Virus record (IMG/VR): IMGVR_UViG_3300025914_000473
Location: 1-33,652 of that record
Length of the DNA: 33,652 nucleotides
Origin: a virus
Direction: 5' to 3' (one strand)
Numbering within the stretch: the first letter of the stretch is position 1; every line of letters starts with the position of its first letter. This document shows, piece by piece, positions 3,052-14,187 of the stretch. Both the position numbers and the translations under genes were made by a program. The notes beneath the pieces were generated by a model, which saw only the letters and a list, made by a program, of their open reading frames with translations, searched no databases and was not told where the DNA came from.

Positions 3052-3684
3052 TTACATTATTATATAATCGACGCCATCCCAAACGAGGTTATATGCCACA
3101 CCCGGATTGACCGTCATTGTGCTTACTTGTGAAATTGTGTAAAAGGTTTGGCCTCCGCTGGGAACAAGTGTTATTATACCAGCACTGGATTTATTTTTCA
3201 TCATTATGGTATCACCAACCCTAGGGGTTGACGGTAACGTCCAAGTGGCATCACCAAGGCCATAGTAAGAATATTGTGTATGTCCTGTATTTATTGTTAG
3301 CGTTGAGGCTGATGTTAGTAATAAACCCAGATTAAGTGCATTGCTATTTATACTATCACTTGTGATTGTTGTTGCGCTGATAATCGCACCATATAGCGGG
3401 GCCGTTAATGTACCACCGCTAAATAAGCCAGTTCCACCGGAAAAATATTGTATTACTGTTGTACCTGAACCACTGAAAGCCAAAGAAGCTAAATCAACCG
3501 TAACCTGTGTGTCATCATTTTTTACCAATATCAGTTGGTCACCTGTCGTGAAGCCTGATTTGATGTTTTGTGACTTTAAGAAAATAAAGTTACTATCAAT
3601 GTCCTGATGTGTAAGTACACTATTAACCGTTATATCTCCGTAAGGGCTCGTAAGGGTTCGTAATACTAAGTGATTATTATACAT
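3052..3684 (-). CDS. Tail fibre/tip protein, shorter paralogue
   Basis: I chose ATG 3684 (210 aa) rather than the upstream start at 3720 because the latter overlaps the preceding gene by 25 bases, while ATG 3684 follows an AT-rich leader typical of Bacteroidota. The product is beta-rich, low in charge, and rich in Gly, Ser and Thr. Its C-terminal ~85 residues (DATWTLPSTPRVGDTIMMKN ... GQTFYTIS ... YNLVWDGVDYIIM) resemble the C-terminal domain of the 944-aa fibre upstream, with the same order of TLTLP-like strand, K-N turn and final W-x-x-I strand. The two genes are adjacent in one operon. It is probably a structural part of the tail tip or fibre that contacts the host surface. Confidence 0.7.
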   Translation of the reverse strand: MYNNHLVLRTLTSPYGDITVNSVLTHQDIDSNFIFLKSQNIKSGFTTGDQLILVKNDDTQVTVDLASLAFSGSGTTVIQYFSGGTGLFSGGTLTAPLYGAIISATTITSDSINSNALNLGLLLTSASTLTINTGHTQYSYYGLGDATWTLPSTPRVGDTIMMKNKSSAGIITLVPSGGQTFYTISQVSTMTVNPGVAYNLVWDGVDYIIM

Positions 3685-3695
3685 TTTATTTATAA

Positions 3696-6530
3696 TTAAT
3701 TTTGACCGATTATATACCACTGTACACCATTAGATTGAACTGCTACGTATTTATAAATTGTACTTAACGAATAGGTACTGGCAGAATCTATTAAGGTATT
3801 CGCGCTTACAGTAACCGTGTTGCCTGTATTTATTTTTTTGATTAAATATTCTACGCCACTTGTAGTTGTTGCATTAGGTAAAGTAAGTGTAAAAGTTCCC
3901 CCGCTTGCATTGCAAAGGATTGTGGAATCTAATGTCGTCGCAGTATATGCTGCAAGTTTTGTTACAATTGGCGTGCTAAAGCTTCCGTTTATTGTAATTG
4001 ATGGCAGGGTTGTGCTTTTATGTACAATACCCGTACTGTCAATTGTCAATACCCCTGTATCCGTTGTTGATGCAGTTAATCCAACAATCTGTAATGGTGT
4101 TGATGAACCACTAAATACAGTATTTCCAATATGTGTAATCTGTGCAGTGGTTGAGGCACTTGATAATAAATCAACCCTCAATGCATCTGCCCTTTGTCCT
4201 GTACCCAATCCGGTACCAATAATTGCAATACAGTTAGGTGTATTACCCGTAATATTATATCTACCACTTACATGCATATAATCTCTATCTGCAATAGTTC
4301 CTAACCCCTCAGAATGAGATGCAACACCAACAGTATTTGTCTGATACCCCTCAGCATGGCTATAGCTAGCATTCGTTGTACTTTGTACACCCTCCGCATG
4401 ACTGGTATAACCATTTGCTTGAGACTGATAGCCTTCAGCATGGCAACCCTGTGCATTGGTTGTTGTCTGTACACCCTCAGCATGTGAAGATTGACCATTA
4501 GCAGTTGACTTTGTACTTTCACCCTCAGCATGTGAATAAATAGCATTCGTTTGTGTTAACCATCCTTCGACGTGTGACCCAAACGTCAATGCACTGGTCG
4601 CAAGACCTTCACTATGGGTATAGTTTGCACTTGCAGTAGTTCCTGAGCCTTCGGCATGTGAATATTGCCCCAACGCCTGTGTTAACGAACCCTCAGCATG
4701 GGAATATTGACCTGAGGCAGTAACACCGACACCCGCTTCAAAGGCTTCATAAACACTAAATTTATTTGAACCAGAACCACTACCAGAAAATATAATATTG
4801 AATGATGATTGGTTAACAATTCTATTACCTGCCAATGTGCCATCAGCATTGTAAATTGTTGCACCGGTTGCACCGCCTGTTGTTCCTGTGATAAGTGTAA
4901 GTAACATCTTGTGTACGTTACCATTTGCATCAATACTTAATAAGCTGCTGTCAGTACTTGAATTGGCTGACAATGCACCAAGATTAAGACTTGTTGCTGA
5001 TACGGTTGCTGCACTTATTGAACCATTTACCGTTAACCCTGTAAAATTGTTTATGATAGTAGATACCGTACCACCAGAATTATTTGTAAGGGTAAGTGTA
5101 TTGTTTGCGAATGTGCCACCAGTTGTATAGGTATTATTTATACCTGTCAAATTGCTACCATTGCCGAATAAAGTACCACCTGAAATTGTTGAAGCGGAAA
5201 TTATTCCATTTACAGTAAGAGCTGTGAAGCTATTTTCAACGACACTTACTGTACCACCAGTATTGTTAGTAAGGTTCAATGTATTATTCAAGAATGTGCC
5301 TCCAGTAATAATAACACTTGGAAAACTTGTTGGTAAACCTGTGATATTAGTAATTGCACCTGTTCCACTAACTGTTATAATTCCGTTTGAGTAACTACCA
5401 CCCGTAATTGCATTTACAGTTGAATTGACGGTTGAACCAGTTGAATTTTTAACAGTTAAAACATTCCCTGATAGGGTCGTTGCAGACAAATACAAACCAC
5501 TAAAAGGAGTACTAGCAGAATATTGAACACCATTGATAAACAAAGTACCAATTGATAGCGTTGAAGCTGATACAGAACCATTAACTGTTAGCCCTGAAAA
5601 GCTGTTAAGCAACACCGAAACAGTACCACCTGTATTATTTGTAAGTGTCAATAAATTATTTACAAATGTTCCTCCAGTTATCTTGGTATCAAATGAACTA
5701 GCACCAGATATAGTACCCCAACTTGCATTACCATTAGCATCAGAAAAAAGCACTTTACCAGCAGACTGATTGCCGTCAATCATTTGAAAGCTTGGTGTTT
5801 GAATATAACTTCCACCAGAATCATCAGCTAATCCACCAAAAATTGCATGTGCATTAGTGCCCTTCAATACCAAAGCATTTGCCCCGCCTACATTTTGGAA
5901 CAATAAACTATTGCTACCATCAACTTTAATAATATAGCGATTAGGAGCATAATTTGCATAGGCAAAGGCGAGGTATGCCAAACCAGTACCATCAACCCCC
6001 ATATTCATAGTACCAAGGCCGTTATCAATTAAATAATTACCGCTTGTTATTACACTGCCATTTACAGTTAAACCAGAGAAATTATTTATTAAGGTAGAAA
6101 CAGTGCCACCACTATTATCAGCCAAAACAAGGTTATTATTTGTAAAGGTTGAACCAGTGATATATCTATTATTATCAATGTTTACAATACCCGTCAAGTG
6201 CGAACCATCACCATAGAACGTAGTTCCTGATAGAGCACCTGTAAGCGTACCACCCGATAAAGGCAAATATGCACCTGTAAGAGAAGCCGAAGAACCACTT
6301 ATATATAAGCCATCAGATAGCATGAATGCTGCGTTGCCACCTTGATGAGAGATATTTAAATTGGCATACAGAGGGTCACACACGCTACCATTGCCGCTAA
6401 ATGAAATGCTAGCTGTATTGCCAGTATAGACAGCAGGACGGCAAGGTGAAGGCTCATCATTGCTGTAGTATTCATTAGGCGCTGGGTTGCCGCTAAAGTT
6501 CCAATCCACTATATAATTAAAATTCTCCAT
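3696..6530 (-). CDS. Tail fibre / receptor-binding protein with YadA-head-like SHAEG repeats
   Basis: The 944-aa product has the composition of a trimeric beta fibre (very rich in G, S, T, N). Residues 90-116 carry the fibre motif LSGGTLTGALSGTTFYGDGS. At least four copies of a ~40-residue module follow (starting near residues 124, 285, 410 and 470; core TGGTFxNNxLxLTNNxGGTVS, then FxGLTVNGSxSA). Residues about 608-745 hold nine or more SHAEG motifs every 14 residues or so, the pattern of a YadA-like left-handed beta-roll. The last ~85 residues are a separate beta domain shared with the next gene. The protein likely trimerises and binds the host surface. Repeats at the DNA level could let domain number change by recombination. 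Confidence 0.85.
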   Translation of the reverse strand: MENFNYIVDWNFSGNPAPNEYYSNDEPSPCRPAVYTGNTASISFSGNGSVCDPLYANLNISHQGGNAAFMLSDGLYISGSSASLTGAYLPLSGGTLTGALSGTTFYGDGSHLTGIVNIDNNRYITGSTFTNNNLVLADNSGGTVSTLINNFSGLTVNGSVITSGNYLIDNGLGTMNMGVDGTGLAYLAFAYANYAPNRYIIKVDGSNSLLFQNVGGANALVLKGTNAHAIFGGLADDSGGSYIQTPSFQMIDGNQSAGKVLFSDANGNASWGTISGASSFDTKITGGTFVNNLLTLTNNTGGTVSVLLNSFSGLTVNGSVSASTLSIGTLFINGVQYSASTPFSGLYLSATTLSGNVLTVKNSTGSTVNSTVNAITGGSYSNGIITVSGTGAITNITGLPTSFPSVIITGGTFLNNTLNLTNNTGGTVSVVENSFTALTVNGIISASTISGGTLFGNGSNLTGINNTYTTGGTFANNTLTLTNNSGGTVSTIINNFTGLTVNGSISAATVSATSLNLGALSANSSTDSSLLSIDANGNVHKMLLTLITGTTGGATGATIYNADGTLAGNRIVNQSSFNIIFSGSGSGSNKFSVYEAFEAGVGVTASGQYSHAEGSLTQALGQYSHAEGSGTTASANYTHSEGLATSALTFGSHVEGWLTQTNAIYSHAEGESTKSTANGQSSHAEGVQTTTNAQGCHAEGYQSQANGYTSHAEGVQSTTNASYSHAEGYQTNTVGVASHSEGLGTIADRDYMHVSGRYNITGNTPNCIAIIGTGLGTGQRADALRVDLLSSASTTAQITHIGNTVFSGSSTPLQIVGLTASTTDTGVLTIDSTGIVHKSTTLPSITINGSFSTPIVTKLAAYTATTLDSTILCNASGGTFTLTLPNATTTSGVEYLIKKINTGNTVTVSANTLIDSASTYSLSTIYKYVAVQSNGVQWYIIGQN
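4300..4713 (-). repeat. SHAEG repeat block inside the tail fibre gene
   Basis: This stretch encodes a run of SHAEG, SHSEG or SHVEG motifs about 14 residues (42 bases) apart, separated by variable segments such as VQTTTNAQGC and YQTNTVGVA. On the plus strand the words cctcagcatg and cttcagcatg recur. The array is imperfect, so it looks conserved for structure and not newly amplified. Confidence 0.8.
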
Positions 6531-9981: not shown

Positions 9982-10935
9982 TTAGTGGAAATAAACTACT
10001 TCAGTTGGGAATTTAACCTGTGTACCTGCTTTGAAGTCGATGTTAAGTCTTACAGTTCTTTGGTCTTGTGAACCCCAGATTTCAATTTTGTCTTCCTCGT
10101 CACTATTATCGGTTCCAAAAAATAAATTTGAAGTTCTTCCGGCAATTATACTTGCACCTATGATAGTGTTTGTATTTGATTGGATTGTGCTGTTAAGACC
10201 CGGCAAAGCCACGACCTGAACACTTGTACCCGGAATATAGATTGTATAATCAGCAGACATTGAAGGGTCAATGTGATAGTTATTTGCACTAAGCAATGCT
10301 TGTACATATAATCTATAAACATCCATGCCAACGAAGATTTTAAAATCATCTTTGTCAATTACTGTGAAAGGAGCCGCCATATAAACACCTGTGATTGCAC
10401 TTACAACATTTGATGAAGTAATAGCGGTAATACCATAAGTGTTACCAGTAGCGTAGCTGCCTGATGTACCACTGATAATTTTAATAAGACCATCCCATTT
10501 ATTGGTATCTGCGTTTGTGTTACCTGTGAAAGTATCACCCTGCCAAATAGCGGTTTCAATCTTAGCAGCCATTTGAGCTGATAAGTTATCAGTAAAGATT
10601 TTTTCAAAAGGCAAATCCAAAGTGTTCCCCGGCTTCAATTGATATTGGGTATATTTTGCGTTAAGTGCTTTAGGACATAATTCTTCTTGAACTACAACTT
10701 CTTTAACAACTAAATTTCTCTGCCCAAAAGAAACAGTACCAGCAGCATTGAAACCGCAGTTTGTACCATCTTGGAAAGTGAATGAATTATCAAAGGTGTT
10801 AAGTGCATAAGATGATTTAATACCCTGAAGGATAGTTAAATATTTAAGGCTTCTTGCACCTAAAACGGTTTTCGCCATTAGGTCGTCTTGTGTTTGATTT
10901 ACGAAATCTGTAAGGGCTGCTACATTATATGCCAT
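9982..10935 (-). CDS. Major capsid protein (HK97 fold, Bacteroidota phage type)
   Basis: The 317-aa product starts MAYNVAALTDFVNQTQDDLMAK. It has a run FDNSFTFQDGTNCGFNAAG, then FGQRNLVVKEVVVQEELCP, a helical LPFEKIFTDNLSAQMAAKIETAIWQGD (spine helix and following WDGL), a TVIDKDDFKIFVGMDVYRLY segment resembling the A domain, and a closing NIDFKAGTQVKFPTEVV. These match the capsid-type proteins of Bacteroidota siphoviruses. It lies after the scaffold-like gene and before the tail tube candidate. No separate N-terminal delta domain is apparent, consistent with the separate scaffold gene upstream. Confidence 0.8.
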   Translation of the reverse strand: MAYNVAALTDFVNQTQDDLMAKTVLGARSLKYLTILQGIKSSYALNTFDNSFTFQDGTNCGFNAAGTVSFGQRNLVVKEVVVQEELCPKALNAKYTQYQLKPGNTLDLPFEKIFTDNLSAQMAAKIETAIWQGDTFTGNTNADTNKWDGLIKIISGTSGSYATGNTYGITAITSSNVVSAITGVYMAAPFTVIDKDDFKIFVGMDVYRLYVQALLSANNYHIDPSMSADYTIYIPGTSVQVVALPGLNSTIQSNTNTIIGASIIAGRTSNLFFGTDNSDEEDKIEIWGSQDQRTVRLNIDFKAGTQVKFPTEVVYFH

Positions 10936-10977: not shown

Positions 10978-11715
10978 TTAGCTAATGTTATTTTGTTTAT
11001 TAAAAGCTTGAGCCATACGGTAAGCTTTTGTGTTAGTTAATTCAGGTGGAACTGGTTTTCTAAAAGATGTTATTTCAGTTTCAATTGGTGACCCAGCCGG
11101 TTGTTTAGATAATTTTGTTACGGTTTGAGCAATTTGATTGACTGCTTCAAGTGTTTCCTTATGTGATTGGAAAAAGGCTGGATAGCCAAGAATAGCTGCT
11201 TGAATATCTTCAATAGCTTTCCAAACAGGTCTTAGTTTTAAGTCAATGAGAGCTGAATCTTCTGCTATTTCAGCAGCGTCTTCTGCAATCTCATCAGCGG
11301 GGGTTTCTGTTGCTTCCTCCGCTAGACTTCCTTCAGGCGCTGTTGTTGCAGATTGCTTTACTTCAGTTTCTGAAGATTGGGTTGTTCCAGTTGCTGTGTC
11401 GCCACTGGTTGCAGGTTCATCTGCTTTTGCTTGAGCTTGTGGAATTGGGTTATCAGTTGAGGCTGGCTTTTGAACCGCTGAATCATCAACGCTTGCAAAT
11501 ACGCCATTTGCAATTGTGAATTTTAAGCCGCTTTTGGTTTTGTATTCACCATTTGCAAGGAGGGAAGAATTCCCAGCGGCATCAAGTAAGACGATATCAG
11601 CACCAACTTTTAATTCAGAATATTCTATCAAGGAGCCGTCTAAGAGGGGTTCATTTGTCAACTTTACAGAGCTTGTCAGTTGTATAGCCCTTTTTATTTT
11701 CTGTATAAAATTCAT
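10978..11715 (-). CDS. Putative capsid scaffolding protein
   Basis: The 245-aa product has an N-terminal beta region (LLDGSLIEYSELKVGADIVL ... NGEYKTKSGLKFTIANGVFAS) seen in proteins next to capsid genes of Bacteroidota phages. It is followed by a long disordered, Ala/Thr/Pro/Glu-rich linker (about residues 85-155) and a helical segment (LKLRPVWKAIEDIQAAILGY, then HKETLEAVNQIAQTVTKL), ending in a basic tail. An extended acidic linker with C-terminal helices is usual for scaffolds, and the gene sits immediately upstream of the major capsid gene. It starts at a divergent region shared with the HEPN-like gene. Confidence 0.65.
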   Translation of the reverse strand: MNFIQKIKRAIQLTSSVKLTNEPLLDGSLIEYSELKVGADIVLLDAAGNSSLLANGEYKTKSGLKFTIANGVFASVDDSAVQKPASTDNPIPQAQAKADEPATSGDTATGTTQSSETEVKQSATTAPEGSLAEEATETPADEIAEDAAEIAEDSALIDLKLRPVWKAIEDIQAAILGYPAFFQSHKETLEAVNQIAQTVTKLSKQPAGSPIETEITSFRKPVPPELTNTKAYRMAQAFNKQNNIS

Positions 11716-11848
11716 AGAAATATAGAATGAGCATTAGCTCACTATATACTATATATGGGGTCGGACATTTATTTGTCATAACCCTGAATCTTAGGGCATT
11801 TGGTTATTAGAATTATTTACTGGAACTTTGAATTTAAATCTGGAAAAA
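11716..11848. promoter_or_regulatory. Divergent control region between scaffold gene and HEPN cassette
   Basis: These 133 bases separate two divergent genes. They contain the inverted repeats TGAGC-ATTA-GCTCA (11728-11741) and CCCTGA-atc-TTAGGG (11782-11796, one mismatch). TATATA-type runs occur at 11742-11756. Plus-strand TTTG words at 11773 and 11800 are possible -33 elements, but no exact TAnnTTTG stands at the right distance, so I do not name a promoter. Confidence 0.4.
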
Positions 11849-12538
11849 ATGGAGAATCCAAGTGACAGTAAGATTACTTTGAACGAAAAACTTAAGATGC
11901 AGTTTGAAGAACTTGATATTGCAAAGAGAAATCTTGTTGAGGGGGTTGATAAAAATATTTTGGCAGTTGAGGAGGATATATATGAAAATAGAAGCTTTTA
12001 CGAGAAAATGAGAAATCACGGAATAAGAAGATTTGATGTTTTATTTAATATTGTTTTAAATTCATCGATAGTAAGTGCAGACCTTGTTTTGTTGTCATCT
12101 CAGATTCGCCTAAGTAACCGAAGGTTCGAAAAGGTTTTATATGCGCGAATGTTAGCAATGATTGTAATTGAATTCTTAAATGACATAAGTACACCTCTTG
12201 GGCGGGACTTAGTACGAGAACTTAAACAAAATAACTACATAGAGCACGTGGAGGCTATAAACAACATAAATAAAGAATTTGCGGAAATAAGGAAGAAGCA
12301 TCAGTCTGTGCTTACGTCAATAAGAAATAATATAGCCGCCCATAAAACAAAAGACGGCTTGAATCTCATCAATCAGATATTCAGTTTAGACCCAAATGAT
12401 ATAGTTGCATTGACGATTGATGTAATGAATGTCAATACTAAATTAAACAAAGAAACTACAGCTATTTATTATCTTATGCTTGAGGAAGCCAAGTTAAAAA
12501 AGGCCAACGACCCCAATTTTAAACCAGAATCTAAATAG
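11849..12538 (+). CDS. HEPN-like protein, first gene of a reversed two-gene cassette
   Basis: I chose ATG 11849 (229 aa); the longer frame would need a TTG at 11828. The product is almost all helical and soluble. Residues 157-166 read SIRNNIAAHK, giving the R-x5-H pattern (Arg159, His165) typical of HEPN RNase domains, at the start of a helix after a long amphipathic helix pair (HVEAINNINKEFAEIRKKHQS). Many HEPN proteins are RNA-cutting toxins of defence or toxin-antitoxin systems. It is transcribed against the surrounding virion operon, 7 bases upstream of a DUF2806 gene. HEPN assignment rests on the motif and helical layout, not on a search. It could instead be a non-catalytic HEPN partner. 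Confidence 0.6.
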   Translation: MENPSDSKITLNEKLKMQFEELDIAKRNLVEGVDKNILAVEEDIYENRSFYEKMRNHGIRRFDVLFNIVLNSSIVSADLVLLSSQIRLSNRRFEKVLYARMLAMIVIEFLNDISTPLGRDLVRELKQNNYIEHVEAINNINKEFAEIRKKHQSVLTSIRNNIAAHKTKDGLNLINQIFSLDPNDIVALTIDVMNVNTKLNKETTAIYYLMLEEAKLKKANDPNFKPESK

Positions 12539-12545
12539 GCTTGAA

Positions 12546-13586
12546 ATGGATATTAAAGCAGATATATCAACAGAAGTAAAAATACCGTTCATAGAGAAAT
12601 TTTTGGACCTCGTGGGTAAGTATTTCGGTAAAAAAACGAAGCAAAAATACGATAAACAGGATATTGACACGGAGGTATATAGGAGGGAAATGTTAGGTAA
12701 CCCTTCAGCAGATGAGATTAAACAGATTTCAAATGCAATAAAGGAAAATGGATTAGAAATTTCATCATTAGATTATAAGGATGGGAAAGTGCAAATTTCT
12801 GCCGCAAAACCTCTAAATGCAATTGATGTCAATTTAGAGCATTCGGTTAATTTGCTTAATAGAACCCAAGAACGTGTGTTAACGCAACAATTGAAAAAGC
12901 AAAGCAATCTTGAAAGTATTTTAGATGCTACGGTAGCAGAGCTACAGAATGAGCCTGATGTGAGCAGCGAGCCGGTAGCGGATGAATGGATGGCTGAATA
13001 TATGGATTTTGCTGGAGATGTCACAGACAAGGACATGCAAAATATTTGGGCTAAAATTTTAGCGGGCGAGATTAAAAGACCTAAGACTTATTCGTTAAGA
13101 ACACTGGAAGTTCTGAGAAAGTTATCCAAGGAAGAGGCTGAAATAGTCCTTAGGATTGCCAGTTTTGCAATAAGGAATAATAAAGAATATTTTCTTGCCA
13201 ATCTTTATGCGGGTTATCCAGAAACAATAGGATTTGGCTTTTTGGAGATTTCAAGTTTAGTCGAATCGGGAATATTACAGGAAAGAACGGATGGCCGATA
13301 TTTTATAAGCGCAAATCAAACTGGCTTGGTAAAGTTTATTTTAGGTGATGTAGTTATGATTGTACAGAACAAAACCGGCCAAGAAATTATTATTCCAATC
13401 ATTGCATTTACACGGGCGGGGTCTGAAATTTTGAGATTAATCACGGCTGTTCCTAATTTGCCATATTTTTATGAAGTTATGGGTACTATTAAAAGACCAG
13501 ATGTGGTGATTCAACTGGCAAAAATTATAACCAATGATGGAATTAATATCACGCACGAAAATCCTGTTGAAGCTTTTGACAATTAA
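12546..13586 (+). CDS. DUF2806-like protein, second gene of the reversed cassette
   Basis: The 346-aa product has a charged N-terminal region (residues 1-60) with a short helix bundle, a middle segment (about 95-135) that looks coiled, and a clear DUF2806-type core at about residues 143-210: DEWMAEYMDFAGDVTDKDMQ, then IWAKILAGEI, RPKTYSLRTLEVLRKLS, EEAEIV. The rest is alpha/beta with two hydrophobic stretches (LVKFILGDVVMIVQ, IIIPIIAFTRAG). DUF2806 has no assigned reaction; the core resembles the motif shared with abortive-infection alpha and related families. The start is 7 bases after the HEPN-like gene, so the two are surely co-transcribed. The 3' end overlaps the convergent protease gene by 38 bases. 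Confidence 0.75.
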   Translation: MDIKADISTEVKIPFIEKFLDLVGKYFGKKTKQKYDKQDIDTEVYRREMLGNPSADEIKQISNAIKENGLEISSLDYKDGKVQISAAKPLNAIDVNLEHSVNLLNRTQERVLTQQLKKQSNLESILDATVAELQNEPDVSSEPVADEWMAEYMDFAGDVTDKDMQNIWAKILAGEIKRPKTYSLRTLEVLRKLSKEEAEIVLRIASFAIRNNKEYFLANLYAGYPETIGFGFLEISSLVESGILQERTDGRYFISANQTGLVKFILGDVVMIVQNKTGQEIIIPIIAFTRAGSEILRLITAVPNLPYFYEVMGTIKRPDVVIQLAKIITNDGINITHENPVEAFDN

Positions 13587-14187
13587 AGTCGTGAAGCAAG
13601 TCATACAATTCATTTAGTATTTCCTGATTTGATTTTTCTTTCAATGGTGCCACTTCTGCCATATTGAATAAGCCGGATATGCTAAACCCGTTAAAGATTC
13701 CTGCTTTACATTGCTCCCAAATAGAATTGTCTTCTACGTAGTATGAGCCATACCAATCACCTTCAGATAGTGGTTCTGCTTCTGTTGTTGGCGTTAATAT
13801 TCCTCTTGATGAATCGATTTGGAAATTTTCAAACAATGTAATGCCATTCAATAGAATGCCATTGTGTTCAGTATCTACATTCTGTGCTTTGTGATTTCTT
13901 TGAAACTTAATCATTGCTTTAAAAATATCTTCTTTGGTTGCAAAAGTTAAGTATTCAAAACCATCGTCATTCCTGTAAATCATTTTGTTTGCAGCCATAA
14001 TAACGCCGCTTACAATTCTCCTTTCATGGTCTTGAATCCTGAAGTCCAATTTCTTAATATCCTTATTGAATTTTAAAAATGTCTTTTCGGTTGCAGGTGA
14101 TTCCACAAAAGAAATGCTGAATACCCCTGTTGAATCTTCTTGGTTTTCGTCTACTATCATTTGATAGATTGGTAATTGTTTGGTCAT
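13549..14187 (-). CDS. XkdF-like prohead maturation protease
   Basis: The 212-aa product resembles the phage serine protease XkdF family (Peptidase_S78_2). It has IYQMIVDENQEDSTGVFSIS and FVESPATEK at the N-terminus, RRIVSGVIMAANKMIYRNDD, the FEYLTFATKEDI segment, NVDTEHNG (His108) followed by LFENFQID (Glu120), and IFNGFSISGLF with Ser169. His108 and Ser169 are candidate catalytic residues. It would cut the scaffold and/or capsid during head maturation. It lies between the tape measure and the scaffold, with the HEPN/DUF2806 cassette inserted just after it; the last 12 codons or so overlap the DUF2806 gene on the other strand, so its C-terminus may have been altered by that insertion. Confidence 0.7.
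   Translation of the reverse strand: MTKQLPIYQMIVDENQEDSTGVFSISFVESPATEKTFLKFNKDIKKLDFRIQDHERRIVSGVIMAANKMIYRNDDGFEYLTFATKEDIFKAMIKFQRNHKAQNVDTEHNGILLNGITLFENFQIDSSRGILTPTTEAEPLSEGDWYGSYYVEDNSIWEQCKAGIFNGFSISGLFNMAEVAPLKEKSNQEILNELYDLLHDFNCQKLQQDFRA

Follow-up and report, generated by a model that had tools for sequence, protein, structure and literature searches.

A backward two-gene cassette in a phage capsid module: a candidate anti-phage moron with a DUF2806 protein and a probable HEPN protein

Two plus-strand genes interrupt the minus-strand head and tail genes of a phage, and the best reading of this cassette is a defence moron built from two Abi-type proteins acting jointly or independently. 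The second gene encodes a DUF2806 (PF10987) protein, a family which profile comparison identifies as a remote homologue of Abi-alpha (DUF4393). The first gene probably encodes a divergent HEPN protein. For the more specific form of this reading, an anti-phage (superinfection-blocking) moron which combines an Abi-alpha-like DUF2806 core with a divergent AbiU2-type HEPN protein, the chances appear to be about even. The DNA analysed, called the window here, is an entire IMG/VR virus record of 33652 bases, possibly itself a fragment. As it is a single complete record, no host genome is attached to it.

The features of the locus are collected in Table 1. The large genes on either side of the cassette, from 25425 down to 3052, all lie on the minus strand. 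This run (~25.4 to 3.1 kb) includes a terminase (PHROG, 5e-81) and a portal-like protein (PF04860, 1.3e-5, under its cut-off). Gene 1 and gene 2 are separated by a spacer of 7 bp (12539-12545). At its 3′ end, gene 2 shares 38 bp with the 3′ end of the protease gene, tail to tail. An alternative start of gene 1 is possible at the TTG at 11828. The initial annotation had described a backward unit of two genes, and the two plus-strand frames, the gap and the minus-strand surroundings are all confirmed. Its prohead protease is likewise borne out, whereas its scaffold has no family match in Pfam or PHROG and bears the name by position only. A virion role for the cassette was set aside given its opposite strand and the location of its relatives outside virion operons. 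At the left end of the window, a small group of plus-strand genes includes a homing-endonuclease-like protein (HNH_3/NUMOD4, 1272-1919, +) just under the Pfam cut-offs.

Table 1. The cassette and its flanking features, in window positions
Feature	Position	Strand	Details
Virion structural protein	9982-10935	-	PHROG 5.4e-7; next after 10978-11715
245-aa gene preceding the capsid protein gene	10978-11715	-	"scaffold" by position only
Possible Bacteroidota-type promoter	11800-11830	+	TTG 11800-11802, 20 bp, then GAACTTTG 11823-11830
Gene 1	11849-12538	+	229 aa, ATG start at 11849
Gene 1 motifs			E146-x3-K150 and R159-N-N-I-A-A-H165 (EIRKK...RNNIAAH); all-helical predicted protein
Gene 2	12546-13586	+	346 aa, DUF2806 protein
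XkdF-type (Peptidase_S78_2) head-maturation protease	13549-14187	-	Pfam E 1.9e-10; PHROG head maturation protease 7.2e-11

Co-transcription of the two genes is likely, judging from the 7-bp gap; the earlier statement that they must be co-transcribed is too strong. Bacteroidota-type promoters follow the consensus TAnnTTTG. The element GAACTTTG differs from it by one mismatch and ends 18 bp ahead of the gene 1 ATG, but such one-mismatch sites occur at ~0.85 per kb across the window and the promoter is therefore weak evidence. Together with the orientation, this weak promoter-like site suggests that the cassette may be expressed independently of the late genes. Neither G+C nor third-position G+C marks the cassette as foreign to the phage, and no convincing target-site repeats flank it. 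The capsid protein revealed no related phages in viral contigs and gave remote matches (22-26% identity) in only 1 of 297 Bacteroidota genomes. With no close phage relatives found in this way, it was not possible to demonstrate an unoccupied insertion site. The initial annotation also had the cassette defend a lysogen; lysogeny is unproven, since no integrase was found among the window proteins scanned.

The assignment of gene 2 to DUF2806 was right. The protein matches PF10987 at 3.4e-35 (122.3 bits, cut-off 24.5), and the alignment of residues 105-309 with positions 1-218 of 221 in the profile makes it a full member. To TIGR03899 in NCBIfam it is related as a non-member (97.2 bits, cut-off 155.65), and PADLOC contains no match. 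The core reads D-K-D-M-Q-x-I-W-A-K-I-L-A-G-E-I ... S-L-R-T-L, and W148, W168, L172 and E175 are invariant; it is reminiscent of Abi-alpha/DUF4393. An AlphaFold2 model from 86 sequences (mean pLDDT 84, pTM 0.78) found no Foldseek hit in the PDB, where no solved structure resembles DUF2806. Among viral models it found a single match, A0A291AUV8, which is probably p58 of Sinorhizobium phage phi3LM21 and has the same length.

The closest relatives of gene 2 are full-length Bacteroidota proteins with 33-37% identity. Further DUF2806 relatives occur in 2 annotated phages, on 47 viral contigs, on 308 plasmids (mostly conjugative enterobacterial, IncX4 among them) and in bacterial and archaeal genomes, with 336 confirmed matches of which 80 loci were retrieved. 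In an even sample, the family was detected above cut-off in 11 of 396 Bacteroidota genomes (~3%) and in 3 of 399 genomes from the phylum which includes the clostridial relatives. The distribution is thus sporadic, with many prophage occurrences. One IncX4 plasmid carries its DUF2806 gene at 3318-4169 (L004); in six isolates, mcr-1.1-pap2 was inserted into such an IncX4 gene (PMC8221240).

In the initial annotation, DUF2806 was a family without an assigned function. This is formally true but misses a published link, as Abi-alpha "shares similarity with PF10987" according to its authors (PMC6356687). Abi-alpha is a single gene, mostly prophage-borne, and that of prophage 6 in E. faecalis V583 causes abortive infection via premature lysis (PMC6356687). 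Ten proteins of the Abi-alpha family were gathered for a profile-profile comparison. By hhalign, DUF2806 matched Abi-alpha/DUF4393 with a probability of 92.6% (P 4.6e-7) over 141 columns, beginning at the LWAKILAGE helix and ending at the LT-x-x-G strand of the C-terminus; an unrelated alignment used as control gave 0.1%. Gene 2 itself has no direct match to PF14337 in Pfam at E up to 1. Searches of PDB sequences with the DUF2806 and Abi-alpha profiles returned nothing, not even the 3H35 similarity which PMC6356687 mentions. The Abi-alpha gene lies opposite in strand to both flanking genes in 6 of 9 Firmicutes phage records inspected (L160, L161, L163, L165, L167, L168). Simple longest-ORF calling identified both flanks in 39 viral DUF2806 loci, of which 30 have at least one opposite-strand flanking gene. 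Several opposite-strand Abi-alpha/DUF4393 genes adjoin replication or small early genes.

Restriction, Abi and toxin-antitoxin genes neighbour relatives of both cassette proteins. Among the 99 genes directly adjacent to DUF2806 in genomes, 6 encode HsdS and 3 encode HsdR-like proteins (raw counts), and the HsdR-like proteins carry an N-terminal DUF4145. Several clostridial loci have DUF2806 after hsdS or before hsdR with a gap of <40 bp. It follows hsdS directly in L097, L100, L114, L124 and L129 and directly precedes hsdR in L082, L100 and L101. This recurrence within or next to operons for type I restriction, mostly clostridial, suggests an accessory role of DUF2806 in restriction-linked defence. 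Furthermore, an AbiJ_NTD4 protein whose C-terminus is HEPN-like occurs twice as a neighbour (L058, L131), and DUF4145 is found near DUF2806 in L073 as well as inside the HsdR of L082, L100 and L101. OLD nuclease, CAP12-TIR, ThsA macro, FRG and DpnII occur as single cases. R-x-H motifs matched by regular expression are not enriched beside DUF2806 relative to more distant genes (0.79 vs 0.74 per 1000 aa), so the trend towards HEPN neighbours is one of the named families only. Many DUF2806 genes adjoin housekeeping genes (enolase, Hsp70, ArgJ), as solitary insertions would. A possible membrane partner is encoded in two Bacteroidota loci (L071 and L074, 3230-3832): a protein of 200 aa, apparently with membrane helices near its N-terminus, whose end coincides exactly with the start of DUF2806. 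The defence moron that had been proposed thus receives strong, if indirect, support from the remote homology to Abi-alpha and from the defence-rich neighbourhoods.

For gene 1, the R-x5-H motif with Arg159 and His165 is present as first reported. HEPN signatures consist of R-x4-6-H with a polar residue after the arginine, plus E-x3-[KR] (PMC3710099), and gene 1 fits this definition with E-x3-K followed by the arginine-histidine motif. The pattern R[NDH]x3-5H appears in 11% of gene 1 shuffles and is weak by itself; in combination with an upstream E-x3-[KR] the rate falls to 1.5%. The motif is more than chance because it is conserved in two remote relatives. When 396 Bacteroidota genomes were searched with a sensitive method, a single relative was convincing over the full length (P0007, 26% identity); it retains R159, N161, H165, H151 and E146. 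A profile of gene 1 and P0007 then recovered a second remote relative, P0010. Both keep K142, R159, H165 and D169, and one of the two keeps E-x3-K; R159, H165 and D169 are invariant in gene 1 (P0001), P0007 and P0010, a set of only three very divergent sequences. P0010 matches HEPN_AbiU2 (PF18734) over profile positions 69-169 with E 0.0019 and 18.1 bits, under the cut-off of 26.8.

Gene 1 itself does not match PF18734, nor does it have a direct family or HEPN profile match in Pfam, NCBIfam, PADLOC or PHROGs. Searches of phages and plasmids by tblastn, with the whole protein or a 78-aa core, gave nothing useful, and contigs of viruses and genomes yielded no relatives when scanned with gene 1, by itself or in an alignment. 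Its single-sequence model is all-helical with low confidence (pLDDT 63) and has no significant Foldseek hit; coiled-coil and rhodopsin matches were discarded as noise. The profile searches settle gene 2 as DUF2806 and leave gene 1 without a direct HEPN match. The HEPN claim draws on the conserved arginine and histidine, the E-x3-K of one relative and the transitive link to AbiU2; as this link is sub-threshold, the identity is likely, not proven. P0007 resides in a toxin-antitoxin-like island (L158 1996-9585) in which Pfam detects a RiboL-PSP-HEPN-like gene (under cut-off) and a PIN gene, and in which Fic, MNT, HEPN and DUF433-like genes were recognised by eye from translations. No DUF2806 gene lies alongside P0007.

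In the defence moron that we favour, the backward position among capsid genes would let the cassette be transcribed from a promoter of its own, whether or not the late genes are active. Its core would be the Abi-alpha-like DUF2806 protein, which would sense a rival phage as it replicates and abort the infection. As a divergent AbiU2-type HEPN, the protein encoded upstream would add metal-independent RNA cleavage via R159/H165. We infer the RNase activity of gene 1, a single pathway shared by both proteins and abortive infection as the outcome. The initial annotation went further, to a fixed system with a HEPN effector and DUF2806 as partner or sensor. Such an obligate system lacks comparative support because the pair appears in no other DUF2806 locus: homologues of gene 1 beside DUF2806 number 0 in 47 viral and 0 in 80 genomic loci (>130 DUF2806 loci overall), and at E<0.01 none was found within 20 Bacteroidota genomes that carry DUF2806. 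A HEPN-like neighbour is missing from most DUF2806 genes, whether the locus is viral or bacterial, and the parallel with Abi-alpha suggests that DUF2806 can be active alone. The claim of a fixed system thus goes half-way towards the refutation which the annotation had itself set out. Another pairing is possibly seen in phi3LM21, where a DUF5677-like gene (L003 252-1043; 0.0087, under cut-off) lies 118 bp upstream of DUF2806; beyond one short match it shows no detectable homology to gene 1.

The same data bear on the alternatives. Two adjacent but independent Abi modules, with DUF2806 acting alone in the manner of Abi-alpha and the HEPN-like gene as a separate passenger, would account for the many DUF2806 loci without a HEPN-like neighbour, for the activity of Abi-alpha as a single gene (PMC6356687) and for P0007 without an adjacent DUF2806. 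The 7-bp spacing, the shared orientation and the single insertion suggest joint expression instead, and HEPN-type genes do recur near DUF2806 in the AbiJ and DUF4145 loci listed above, so that we consider independence possible, if on the unlikely side. Somewhat more doubtful is a novel abortive-infection system of two components, with the HEPN RNase under the control of DUF2806. DUF2806 would then be a switch acting at the membrane or an infection sensor of the Abi-alpha kind, and would recruit effectors that can replace one another: HEPN RNases in this cassette, AbiJ-HEPN or subunits of type I restriction in other loci. A toxin-antitoxin pair, in which DUF2806 restrains an RNase toxin encoded by gene 1 until infection, is improbable. 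The layout resembles that of HEPN/MNT pairs (PMC7641770) and the island around P0007 is toxin-antitoxin-like, but neither a nucleotidyltransferase nor any other known family of antitoxins appears in a Pfam scan of the DUF2806 protein. Moreover, DUF2806 mostly lacks an accompanying toxin gene, and Abi-alpha, to which it is remotely homologous, itself triggers early lysis (PMC6356687). Lastly, gene 1 could be a non-catalytic helical partner of a DUF2806 protein working in receptor- or entry-level exclusion, given the missing direct HEPN match, the chance rate of R-x-H alone and the low-confidence model without a HEPN fold match. The invariance of R159, H165 and D169 across very divergent relatives and the sub-threshold AbiU2 match of P0010 speak against this reading, which is improbable as well.

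Read as a phage-borne Abi moron, the cassette is composed of parts of known kinds in a pairing seen in none of the other DUF2806 loci retrieved. What makes it valuable above all is the Abi-alpha link, which provides a testable role for DUF2806, a family spread over hundreds of genomes, many prophages and the IncX4 plasmids in which mcr-1 cassettes were found inserted. From this link, anti-phage activity is predicted for DUF2806, and the recurrence of the family next to subunits of type I restriction systems strengthens the prediction. With its two genes, the phage cassette is a compact construct for trying it.

Four known families and systems come closest to this arrangement. DUF2806 genes are usually solitary or beside restriction genes, whereas here the gene is the second of a phage cassette. 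HEPN/MNT toxin-antitoxin systems (HepT/MntA, PMC7641770) likewise consist of two genes of which one is HEPN-like, but their partner is a nucleotidyltransferase and not DUF2806. AbiU2-type HEPN proteins (PF18734) have R-N-x4-H and an upstream E-x3-K as gene 1 does, while the link to them is transitive via P0010 and below cut-off. Abi-alpha (PF14337/DUF4393; EF2833, PMC6356687) resembles gene 2 in similar size, in remote homology over the core and the C-terminal part, in prophage location and in a frequent orientation opposite to both flanking genes. DUF2806 differs from it by a longer N-terminal region and another core signature (W-A-K-I-L-A-G-E), and stays under Pfam membership of that family. 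Furthermore, Abi-alpha is described as a single gene, whereas here the DUF2806 gene comes after a HEPN-like gene.
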